A DNA stretch of 37,471 nt, taken from Clostridiales bacterium. GTDB taxonomy: Bacteria > Bacillota > Clostridia > Lachnospirales > WRAX01. Under the pieces are notes generated by a model, which had not been told where the DNA came from, did not search any database, and saw nothing but the letters and a program-made list of their open reading frames with translations. Shown one piece after another: positions 13,020-36,076 of the stretch. Made by a program: the position numbers and the translations under genes. Numbering within the stretch: position 1 is the first letter of the stretch; every line of letters begins with the position of its first letter. The stretch is from assembly GCA_031265685.1 (NCBI GenBank), contig JAISCI010000058.1, positions 1 to 37,471 of the forward strand, written 5' to 3'.

Positions 13020-13023
13020 GAAT

Positions 13024-13332
13024 TAAGAATCTGTATTCATTAGTGGAATCGGCGGATTTTCGCGATGATTTTCCGCCGGGCGAGGAAGCGGAAAACGCCG
13101 CGTACTCAGAGAGTACGCAAATTCTTGGCTGACGACGACGAAGATGGCTTGATGAATTTTGCGTGATGGAATTTTGCGTGGTTCGAAGCATTATCGTGTG
13201 GTTCAAACGATAATGCGATGCGAAATTCATTCAAGCAAAATTCAGATGTTGTCTAAGACAACATCAAACGTCGATCAACGACGGGAAATCAGCCGAAAAG
13301 ACGTCGATTCCATCTATGAATACAGGTTCTAA
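13024..13332. mobile_element. MITE-like element, family 2 copy B1, between spmA and spmB
   Basis: Terminal inverted repeats taagaatctgtattcattagtggaatcg / cgattccatctatgaatacaggttcta. About 309 bp, no ORF. Contains the GAATTTTGCGTGA module and a perfect gatgttgtc-taa-gacaacatc hairpin. Confidence 0.75.
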
Positions 13333-17880: not shown

Positions 17881-17932
17881 TACTGTTTCAGGTAAGATGG
17901 CGGCATTTGTCAGCCTTAATCCTGAAACAGTA
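17881..17932. repeat. ACTGTTTCAGG...CCTGAAACAGT inverted repeat in secA leader
   Basis: Perfect 11-bp arms 17882-17892 / 17921-17931, flanked by TA. Same words at 24400-24439. Confidence 0.65.
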
Positions 17933-22667: not shown

Positions 22668-23419
22668 AAGCGATTCTGCTGTGCGCGGGATACGCCACTC
22701 GGCTCTACCCGCTGACGAAAGACAAGCCGAAAGCGTTGCTGCCTGTGCGCGGCAAGCCGATTCTCACGAGCATATTGGAGCAGGTCGAGCGCGTACCCGC
22801 CGTGGACGGCGTTTATTGCGTATCCAACCATAAATTCGTGGATCGATTCAGGGAATGGGCAGATGGAATTTCGCGGAATCAAGCAAAATCCAACAGAACG
22901 CCCGTCGTGGTGCTGGACGACGGCACGACGGAGGCGGGGCGGCGGCTCGGGGCGATCGGCGACATAAATTTCTGTATAGAAAAGGAAAGCATCGACGACG
23001 AGCTGTTGATCGTCGCGGGTGATAATTTTTTCACTTTCGATTTGCTGGAATATTATGATTTCTACCGACGTAAGGGCGGCGATTGTGTATGCGCGAAGGA
23101 ACTGCCGGACGTCAGCCTTCTGCGGCAGATGGGCGTGGCGGTGACGGACGGCGGCGACAGGATAATCCGGCTGGTCGAGAAGCCCGACGAACCCGAATCG
23201 AACCTGGCCGTATACGCGACATATTTCTACACGCGCGGCACGGCGCGGCTTATAGGCCGGTACCTGGCCGAAGGCAACAAGCCCGACGCGCCCGGATACT
23301 TCATCCAATGGCTGTACCGGGAAAAGCCCGTCTACGTCTGGCGCATGAATGGCGAGTGCTTGGACGTCGGCACTGTAGCGAGCTACGAGAACGCGCTTCG
23401 CAGATTCGGCGATGGCTGA
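22664..23419 (+). CDS. Sugar-phosphate nucleotidyltransferase (NTP_transferase family)
   Basis: MKAILLCAGYATRLYPLTKDKPKALLPVRGKPIL. Overlaps the upstream stop by 4 bp. Confidence 0.9.
   Translation: MKAILLCAGYATRLYPLTKDKPKALLPVRGKPILTSILEQVERVPAVDGVYCVSNHKFVDRFREWADGISRNQAKSNRTPVVVLDDGTTEAGRRLGAIGDINFCIEKESIDDELLIVAGDNFFTFDLLEYYDFYRRKGGDCVCAKELPDVSLLRQMGVAVTDGGDRIIRLVEKPDEPESNLAVYATYFYTRGTARLIGRYLAEGNKPDAPGYFIQWLYREKPVYVWRMNGECLDVGTVASYENALRRFGDG
22865..22891 (+). repeat. Palindromic-module-like sequence inside the nucleotidyltransferase CDS
   Basis: ggaatttcgcggaatcaagcaaaatcc resembles ggaattttgcgtgatccaagcaaaattc at 24279-24304; encodes GISRNQAKSN. Confidence 0.5.
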
Positions 23420-24245
23420 ATACGCCATCGGCGTGAGCGGGGCGCGGCGGCTCGATTATCTCGAGGGGTACGATTTTTCGGCGCCGTTCGTGAAGCCTGA
23501 TCCGGAGCCGAAGATCAATCCGTCTGTTGTCCTTTCTGGCGCGCGCAGCGTTATCGCCGTCGCGGTTCCGTATGCCCGCGCGCGCGGGATCAATCCCGAC
23601 GGCAAGAATCGGCTCTATATCAGCTCGATCGCGCTTATCCCAGACTACCACCGGGCGGTACGGCGGATACTGGAGGAAATCGACTCGGCTCTCCCGCCGC
23701 ACAGATCGAAGGCGCTCATAGACAGCGGCAAGCTGAACGAACGCGCCTTCGCCGTCCGGTGCGGCGTGGCGTTCCGGGCACGGAACCGCTCGGTTGTGAG
23801 CGCGGGCGTCGGGGGATTCACCGCGCTCGGGCTTCTGGTTACGGACTTGCCGCCCGAGGATACCGGCATAGCGCCGCTCCCGCCCGGAGACGCGTCGCTC
23901 GCCGCGTGCGGGGACTGCCGCGCCTGTGTCGCCGCCTGCCCCGGCGGCGCGTTGCGGGAGGACGGATACGACTATACACGCTGCGCTTCCTATATCACTC
24001 AAAAGCCCGGAGATCTGACGGAGACCGAAGCTCGGCTGACGGGCGGCTGGCTCTACGGCTGCGACGCCTGCCGCGACGTATGCCCGTTTAACGCGGGCGT
24101 CCCCGCGCTCGAATATGTCATGCCGCTGCCCGCCGAGATCGCTGGTATGACCGACGGGGAATGGGACGCCCGGTTCGGCGGCACGGCCGCGAGGTGGCGC
24201 GGGGCGGATATAATGAGACGAAACGCTTTACTGAATTTTGCGTGA
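23412..24245 (+). CDS. queG: Epoxyqueuosine reductase QueG-like (double 4Fe-4S)
   Basis: 277 aa; CGDCRACVAACPGGAL and CDACRDVCPFN ferredoxin motifs, KPDPEP/IAVAVPYA N-terminal region. Confidence 0.82.
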   Translation: MAEYAIGVSGARRLDYLEGYDFSAPFVKPDPEPKINPSVVLSGARSVIAVAVPYARARGINPDGKNRLYISSIALIPDYHRAVRRILEEIDSALPPHRSKALIDSGKLNERAFAVRCGVAFRARNRSVVSAGVGGFTALGLLVTDLPPEDTGIAPLPPGDASLAACGDCRACVAACPGGALREDGYDYTRCASYITQKPGDLTETEARLTGGWLYGCDACRDVCPFNAGVPALEYVMPLPAEIAGMTDGEWDARFGGTAARWRGADIMRRNALLNFA

Positions 24246-24390
24246 CGGAATTTTGCGTGACGGAAATTTGCGCGACGGAATTTTGCGTGATCCAAGCAAA
24301 ATTCATTCAAGCAAAATTCATTCAAGCAAAATTCATCCAAGCAAAATTCATCCAAGCAAATTCATTCAAGCAAAATTCATAGCAAAATTT
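24231..24390. repeat. 15-nt tandem inverted array: (GAATTTTGCGTGACG)x4 then (CAAGCAAAATTCATT)x6-7
   Basis: Four left units and at least six right units with the complementary core GAATTTTGC/GCAAAATTC. queG stop TGA lies inside the first unit. Confidence 0.9.
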
Positions 24391-24399
24391 TTAACGGAG

Positions 24400-24439
24400 A
24401 CTGTTTCAGAATCAATATCACTGTATAAGCTGAAACAGT
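24400..24439. repeat. ACTGTTTCAG...CTGAAACAGT inverted repeat in speD leader
   Basis: Perfect 10-bp arms 24400-24409 / 24430-24439, about 25 bp upstream of the speD start. Confidence 0.65.
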
Positions 24440-24463: not shown

Positions 24464-25228
24464 ATGGAGAAGAAACTGAGGCTGTACGCCTTCAATAACC
24501 TTACAAAGTCTCTCAGTTTTAACATCTATGACGTTTGCTACGCCAAGACGGAGCGCGAGCAGCGCGATTATATCGCCTACATCGACAAGCAGTATAACTC
24601 CGAGCGTCTCACGAAGATCCTTTACCATGTTACGGAAATGATCGGCGCCCACGTTATCAACGTGTCCAAGCAGGACTACGACCCGCAGGGCGCGTCCGTC
24701 ACTTTTCTTATCGCGGAGTCGTCCATGGTGCCGCAGGGCGGCGACGAAACCGTCATGCATCTCGACAAGAGCCACGTCGCGGTGCATACGTACCCGGAGT
24801 ACCACCCCGACACGGCCATAGCGACGTTCCGCGTGGATATCGACGTTACGACGTGCGGCGAGATTACGCCGCTTTCGACGCTCGACTATCTGATCGGATC
24901 GTTCGATTCGGACATCATCACGATGGACTACCGCGTGCGCGGCTTCACGCGCGAGGTGACCGGCAAGAAGCTCTACATCGACCACGACATAACGAGCATA
25001 CAGGACTATATCGACGACGCGGTCATCGCGCGGTACGACTGTGTGGATATTAACGTTTACCAGTCGAATATGTTCCACACCAAGATGCTGATCAAGGAAG
25101 TAGACTTGCAGAATTACCTGTTCAACGCCGACGTGTATGAGCTGGCGCCGAAGATACGGCTCTCGATAACCCAGAGCCTGCGCCAGGAAATGATTGAGAT
25201 ATTCAGCGGAGTGAACATATATGCTTAA
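24464..25228 (+). CDS. speD: S-adenosylmethionine decarboxylase proenzyme (long form)
   Basis: 254 aa; LNK...AESSMVPQGGDETVMHLDKSHVAVHTYPEYHPDTAIATFRVDIDVTTCGEITPLSTL contains the processing-site and catalytic motifs. Confidence 0.93.
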   Translation: MEKKLRLYAFNNLTKSLSFNIYDVCYAKTEREQRDYIAYIDKQYNSERLTKILYHVTEMIGAHVINVSKQDYDPQGASVTFLIAESSMVPQGGDETVMHLDKSHVAVHTYPEYHPDTAIATFRVDIDVTTCGEITPLSTLDYLIGSFDSDIITMDYRVRGFTREVTGKKLYIDHDITSIQDYIDDAVIARYDCVDINVYQSNMFHTKMLIKEVDLQNYLFNADVYELAPKIRLSITQSLRQEMIEIFSGVNIYA

Positions 25229-26663: not shown

Positions 26664-26665
26664 TG

Positions 26666-26721
26666 AATTTTGCCTGGTGCCGCAAAATTCCTTATAAATT
26701 TTGCCTGATGCCGCAAAATTC
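26666..26721. repeat. Two adjacent palindromic modules between speA and speE
   Basis: gaattttgcctggtgccgcaaaattc (26666-26691) and aaattttgcctgatgccgcaaaattc (26696-26721 region). Confidence 0.75.
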
Positions 26722-35798: not shown

Positions 35799-36076
35799 CA
35801 ATTCCATTCCAAAGGAGCGATAAAAATTTTTCAGTCCGAGCCAGAGAATTTCGCGCCGCGTTATCGCGTGGATGAATTTCGCGTGATTTGAAGCATTATC
35901 GCTTGGACGAAGTTTGCATCGCATTTTCGCTTGGTTTGAAGCATTATTGCTTGGTTCACGCGATAATGCGATGCGAAATTCTGTCAGGCGATACACTTCA
36001 AACCAGGCAAACTTCCGAGCCGCGCGGACTCGCTGAAGCTTGAAAAATTTTTATCCACAAATCTAAATGGAGTTAG
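35799..36076. mobile_element. MITE-like element, family 1 copy C
   Basis: Left end caattccattccaaaggagcgataaaaatttttcag; right end gaaaaatttttatccacaaatctaaatggagttag. Interior full of GAATTTCGCGTGA / GCATTATCGCTTGG palindromic words, no ORF. Confidence 0.75.

Follow-up and report, generated by a model that had tools for sequence, protein, structure and literature searches.

The gene queG ends inside an array of inverted 15-nt tandem units, and speD follows on the same strand. A sequence-only reading of this locus proposed a variable-length mRNA hairpin that sets queG/speD expression. We asked whether the array belongs to these two genes or to the genome at large. The DNA analysed, called the window throughout, is the whole 37,471-nt stretch of contig JAISCI010000058.1 from the draft assembly GCA_031265685.1 (130 contigs, 2.2 Mb, 91% complete).

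Structure of the array at the queG 3' end

Tandem Repeats Finder gave the array an exact span of 24233-24380, compared with 24231-24390 in the sequence-only reading. The features of the locus, in window coordinates, are as follows.

23412-24245, + strand: queG, epoxyqueuosine reductase (Pfam QueG_DUF1730 1.5e-9, Fer4_16 9e-17); C-terminus compared with relatives
24233-24290, + strand: left block, 15-nt unit GAATTTTGCGTGACG, 3.9 copies, 90% matches (Tandem Repeats Finder)
24278-24304, no strand: innermost hairpin of the array, GAATTTTGC - loop GTGATCCAA - GCAAAATTC
24293-24380, + strand: right block, unit CAAGCAAAATTCATT, 5.9 copies, 94% matches (Tandem Repeats Finder)
24400-24439, no strand: inverted repeat ACTGTTTCAG...CTGAAACAGT, between the array and speD
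24464-25228, + strand: speD, S-adenosylmethionine decarboxylase (Pfam AdoMet_dc 2.4e-14)

The inverted array, with its 3.9 left and 5.9 right units, is real and lies far beyond chance. The window contains 17 copies of the 9-mer GAATTTTGC, where 0.64 would be expected, and 0 of 100 shuffles reached 17. The predicted fold of the array strand is a rod of four rungs (DNA z = -5.7, RNA z = -5.1), and equal stability was found in 0 of 200 shuffles. Left-block units read GAATTTTGC-GTGACG, with unit 3 altered to GAAATTTGC-GCGACG; the altered arm GAAATTTGC has no corresponding change on the right side. Right units outnumber left units (~6 vs ~4), and the last right-block units have no left partner. The right block can also be parsed as a 44-nt, three-unit block present twice, and the rungs of the array are nearly all of one type. 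The 15-nt period keeps the EFCVT and QAKFI frames open, as described before.

The queG stop codon does lie in the first unit, where the frame ends ...RRNALLNFA-stop (TGA, 24243-24245). QueG homologues from three members of the taxonomic family end in WRGLRILKRNAGYALRNLSENQ, WRGLGVLKRNAAAALENWKSYNH and WRGLENLKRNAAIALENYNVEGES, following the pattern WRG..LKRNA..AL.N plus 3-6 residues. The window QueG ends in WRGADIMRRNALLNFA, ~8 residues short, which upholds the earlier suggestion that the native 3' end had been altered. Judged by this comparison, the array evidently cost QueG ~8 C-terminal residues, either lost or replaced.

A high-copy hairpin family in one genome

The 9-mer GAATTTTGC was found 684 times in the whole 2.2-Mb genome (338 and 346 by strand), compared with 11 (5 and 6) for the reversed control. 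The strict hairpin, GAATTTTGC-N4..20-GCAAAATTC, was found 165 times, and nearly all copies were 26-27 nt long. None was present in 15 other genomes of the taxonomic family, and 279 further genomes of the order gave one lone match, with another loop. In a class-wide sample of 391 genomes, its own included, the strict hairpin occurred in its own genome alone (0 of 390 others). Extra GAATTTTGC copies in one relative (G003) look coding, since a common protein context surrounds several of those read, and none of them forms a paired hairpin. The queG array belongs to a set of several hundred related elements in this genome and is no private feature of queG and speD.

Spacing, nesting and gene-context statistics were taken from ~702 kb of stretches picked around matches, and densities there are not genome averages. 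The 332 cores in these stretches included 80 cases of forward-then-reverse order at 17 or 18 nt and 37 same-strand cases at 15 nt. Nine of the 332 cores had no nearby inverted partner, by a loose test with a 29% pass rate at random places. The one-mismatch spectrum was sharp, with 332 copies of GAATTTTGC against 9.6 expected and most neighbours near background. Single hairpins often stood in unique sequence, phage genes included, with no larger repeat around them. Further members in the window are listed below.

29-54, no strand: single family hairpin, loop CTGAATCC
26665-26721, no strand: family hairpin with loop CTGGTGCC, then a second, imperfect hairpin; between two genes
35846-36015, no strand: nested array with mixed arms GAATTTCGC, GCATTATCG, GAAGTTTGC and GCATTTTCG, around the hairpin 35942-35968

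Conserved loops, covarying stems and nesting

The family unit is a 26-27-nt hairpin in which a 9-bp stem, varied but complementary, encloses the conserved loop NTGAACCAN or CTGAACCC on either strand. What stays constant from hairpin to hairpin is the loop (GTGAACCAA, GTGGTTCAA, CTGAACCC and their complements). The stem arms covary, and their types include GAATTTTGC, GAAGTTTGC, GAATTTCGC, GCATTATCG, CATTATCGT, CATTTTCGC and GAATTTGCC. Mismatch of the first and last loop bases was imposed by the rule of one search and is also seen in the commonest loops of a rule-free search.

Hairpins are nested in the loops of other hairpins, with 121 cases at depth 1, 39 at depth 2, 27 at depth 3, 9 at depth 4, 4 at depth 5 and 1 at depth 7. 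When the second rung was read at fixed 15-nt offsets, with no match demanded, its two arms were of the same type in 20 of 28 cases, compared with 6.2 expected under independence. Successive rungs often differ in type and in connectors. The deepest nest (L044:1094-1304) packs seven rungs into 211 nt, uses several arm types and overlaps the start of a very long open frame.

Filled and empty copies of larger repeats

Several larger repeats carry family hairpins, namely Fam1, Fam2 and the TACTGTTTCAG element. Fam1 is the dispersed repeat GAAGATGGCTTGATGTTGTC...GACAACATCAAACGTC, of which the window holds one copy.

~13020-13331, no strand: Fam1-type dispersed repeat of ~300 bp; its terminal inverted repeats, GAATCTGTATTCATTAGTGGAATCGGCG ... 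GATTCCATCTATGAATACAGGTTCT, are imperfect
13154-13243, no strand: three-level nested family hairpin inside the ~300-bp repeat; filled counterpart of L035:5139-5165

Fam1 copies were observed in three states: no hairpin (L018:2195, L041:5802, L045:858), one hairpin (L035:5125, L012:9635, L009:3253) and a three-rung nest (window 13154-13243, L018:18827, L009:5368). The L035 and window copies have a 248-nt stretch in common, ~97% identical outside gaps. The main gap of 63 nt falls exactly between the loop halves GTGA|TTCAA, in an alignment that can be read as gain or loss. At the same place, Fam2 (TACTAATTCCACT...AGTGGAATTAGTAT) holds 1-3 left and 1-2 right units depending on the copy. The variable unit number proposed for the array was thereby borne out in part, among Fam2 copies within one genome.

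A second kind of filled site came from the stretch L049 (MAG Oscillospiraceae Nm470_bin129), where two hairpins break up a phage gene for PAPS reductase. Joins that dropped 25-33 nt were tried against phage homologues; the best removed 30 or 33 nt at the first site and 31 nt at the second, each with near-ties in the same frame.

The inverted repeat between the array and speD is an element of another dispersed repeat. Matching termini recur at window 17883-17930, L031:10916, L040:9052 and other places. The copy at window 17883-17930, (T)ACTGTTTCAG...CTGAAACAGT(A), stands just before secA, and elsewhere this repeat carries hairpins inside. Many contig ends of the same genome (C4, C7, C15, C46, C48, C56, C88, C91, C99 and others) consist of TGTAAATGTCAA...-type repeats with internal inverted repeats. 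These resemble the ends of multi-copy insertion sequences, IS21-like by eye.

Probable growth by loop insertion and slippage

The array is probably one copy of a lineage-specific, high-copy, very small palindromic family that grows by loop insertion and unit slippage and spreads as mobile or selfish DNA, mostly between genes. Each unit would add ~30 bp, and the loop of an existing hairpin would be the preferred landing site. Successive loop insertions would build nested rods with a 15-nt step per side, and tandem 15-nt units could then expand or shrink by slippage on either arm. At queG, the insertion would have clipped ~8 codons. Dispersal, hairpin grammar, nesting, filled and empty copies and the shortening of QueG are direct observations; from them we infer that copies differ through insertional gain, that insertion is aimed at the loop and that the family spreads selfishly.

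For the queG array, 15-nt slippage per side after an initial insertion fits better than repeated insertion alone and best explains its form, because the rungs are nearly all of one type, the altered left arm is unmatched, right units exceed left units and two three-unit blocks are present. Slippage alone does not make nests, because neighbouring rungs often differ in type. Several points weigh against loop insertion as the mode of growth. No transposase could be tied to the family and a constant target-site duplication was not seen. Differences in depth could be losses instead of gains, and template switching during replication could make nests. Array unit counts may be collapsed in a draft of 130 contigs, and stem conservation also fits selection for a bound protein.

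Growth without transposition is an alternative that we find rather unlikely. Hairpins extruded during replication would undergo template switching or slippage, their arms would be corrected to perfect palindromes, and larger repeats would disperse them. The covariation of the arms is as in palindrome correction, the window array has near-identical units in an unbalanced 4 vs 6 arrangement, and Fam1, Fam2 and the TACTGTTTCAG element do carry hairpins. Against it stand the many single hairpins in unique sequence, phage genes included, without a surrounding larger repeat, and the successive rungs of different types with different connectors.

Gene context and tests of RNA function

Core clusters were intergenic in 135 of 154 cases, where ~24% of the sequence is intergenic; this count is an upper estimate, as foreign or decayed genes escape the simple codon-usage script used for gene calling. 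In gaps between co-directional genes, loop sense was split 40 to 46 (p = 0.59), and it had no link with GC skew or with the majority gene strand. Convergent, divergent and tandem gaps were used roughly as they occur, with no convergent bias. T-tracts lay beside the outer stem in 7 of 401 flanks (1.7%), compared with 5.0% in random intergenic DNA (p = 0.0006). A function at the RNA level would be expected to leave a preferred strand or place. The family has neither a strand bias nor a convergent-gene bias, and its T-tracts are fewer than chance gives, so as a class it does not resemble terminators or mRNA elements. On the tests of T-tracts, gene orientation and loop sense, an intrinsic terminator or mRNA element was rejected as the class function. 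Rfam returned no family at gathering score and only sub-threshold microRNA models.

These results bear on the proposal that the array is an mRNA hairpin dedicated to queG/speD expression. The rod would attenuate or stabilise the queG-speD transcript or block speD translation, and its unit number would tune the effect. The RNA fold of the array is strong, and the array separates two co-directional genes, with speD 83 nt downstream. The same element is found at more than 100 unrelated places, where the balanced loop senses, the missing convergent-gene bias and the scarcity of T-tracts all speak against such a role, as does the lack of a match to an Rfam family. No site resembling a promoter or a terminator was seen at the array itself. 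That the array acts as a regulatory or processing hairpin is accordingly improbable, and the earlier proposal was not sustained. A local side effect of the array on queG/speD expression could still occur.

A few hairpins are translated as part of an open frame. The phage-like protein L033:18050-18367 carries EFCVNQAKF, from a hairpin copy translated in frame. Translational bypass or splicing of in-gene hairpins (L011, L033) was considered and set aside, as the sequence there is decayed or the frame runs through the hairpins. The regions L033:17700-19195 (phage-like) and L046:18000-19740 are decayed gene regions at contig ends, with many single un-nested hairpins in former genes. At L031:12682-14271, a His_biosynth (HisA/HisF) domain and HisIE-type PRA-CH/PRA-PH are joined in one open frame, and the linker is a hairpin array, ILPEPAKFRPEPAKFWPESAKF.

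Unlikely readings: recognition site and assembly artefact

A selected recognition sequence, such as a DNA-uptake, nucleoid-binding or packaging site, would account for the sharp one-mismatch spectrum and the equal strand counts. Uptake sequences also occur singly and within genes, as single copies over genes and intergenic DNA, whereas this family is nearly all paired (9 of 332 cores unpaired) and enriched between genes. The loop is kept while the stem varies, and the same loop is commonly found with other stems. We regard this explanation as very improbable. An assembly or library artefact is extremely unlikely: the assembly is a draft from a metagenome with repeats near some contig ends, but the hundreds of copies have unique flanks on different contigs, and same-loop members are found in two other MAGs, L049 and L089.

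Candidate enzymes

A search of the 91%-complete genome for the RAYT/Y1 transposase domain (PF01797) gave no match, whereas its controls matched, and a RAYT/IS200-605 origin was rejected on this ground. A reverse transcriptase is encoded by one gene on contig 53; it was set aside as the origin, with no family arms within the ~2.9 kb taken around the gene. IS110 had two matches, one without arms nearby and the other on a stretch with several family hairpins, and was likewise not retained. We tentatively suggest, as a possibility well short of an even chance, a so far undescribed mobility system that inserts ~30-bp foldback units into apical DNA-hairpin loops, prefers its own folded kind and is active in this lineage and its phages, with an enzyme unrelated to RAYT/IS200.

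Relation to known palindromic repeats

REP elements of the GTAG and CGTC super-families are high-copy bacterial palindromes of 20-40 bp (PMC3733652). The present family is likewise made of high-copy 20-40-bp palindromes, with most clusters intergenic. It differs from GTAG REPs in that the flanks of 90 single hairpins have no conserved tetranucleotide tag and the genome has no RAYT gene. CGTC REPs have 8-9-bp stems and no known transposase, and are described with a CGTC (TGTC/CCTC) tag, a stem beginning with AT pairs, a 4-5-nt loop and a CCA tail (PMC3733652). The 9-bp stem here fits, but it mostly starts with GA or CA, the loop is 8-9 nt, and tag and tail are not conserved. REPs are arranged as side-by-side dimers, whereas the present hairpins are nested in loops. 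REPINs resemble the family as paired inverted short repeats between genes with compensatory hairpin changes and occasional tandem arrays, but they are longer, with 71 bp between the starts of the two GI 16-mers, and are associated with RAYT transposases (PMC3116915), which this genome lacks.

Short palindromic repeats in the organelle DNA of Volvox carteri are conserved-loop foldbacks, mostly intergenic and thought to be selfish, with an unknown mechanism (PMC2670323). They often insert into each other and so build up bigger elements (PMC2670323). A palindrome inserted in a palindrome with the loop conserved is common to both, seen here as depths 1-7 and the 63-nt insert between loop halves. 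The Volvox repeats differ in belonging to eukaryotic organelles and in their 3-5-nt TAAA/TTTA loops and stems of up to 37 nt; no 15-nt step is described for them (PMC2670323), and we saw no sequence relation to the present family. IS1397, ISKpn1, IS621 and others insert specifically within palindromic repeats (PMC1525189). In those cases a complete IS, transposase included, is inserted (PMC1525189), whereas here the insert is a ~30-bp hairpin of the target's own kind. MITEs have terminal inverted repeats, a target-site duplication and a transposase parent. Here the 30- and 31-nt joins would match a 27-nt unit plus 3-4 nt, but no constant duplication was seen and no parent transposase was found.

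Rickettsia palindromic elements occur in protein-coding genes as well as between genes, as does the present family. They are longer elements. The R. conorii elements RPE-4 and RPE-6 have been equated with CGTC repeats (PMC3733652). No published report of the present family was found in a partial coverage of the literature. With no REP tag, RAYT gene or Rfam family that fits, it is best read as a new family of small palindromic repeats.

Among abundant bacterial palindromes, those best explained depend on a link to RAYT transposases. This family follows another grammar, with the loop kept and the stem covarying, and probably grows as one hairpin within the next, in a genome without RAYT. Its natural filled and empty sites, on chromosome and phage contigs, offer a way to ask how minimal DNA spreads. 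Genome-wide copies should be counted before a gene-adjacent hairpin is called a regulator.

Carriers in other genomes

Two further carriers have members with the exact loop: L049, and L089 from a MAG labelled Treponema Gx481_bin52. Each carries phage genes, Sipho_Gp157 in L049 and Phage_portal in L089. L089 also holds a nested copy and Fam1-like pieces, and for this reason it may be misbinned or represent a shared phage. From record names, both MAGs appear to come from termite gut. Nearly all other matches in the GTDB contig scan were unrelated hairpins, and the one IMG/VR match was unrelated. The Treponema MAG Po218_bin16 has a complex repeat of its own (stretches L052, L059, L063, L065, L067, L070, L084, L085, L094 and L106), in which the same 9-bp stem GAATTTTGC/GCAAAATTC encloses the loop GATTTATC between other flanks.
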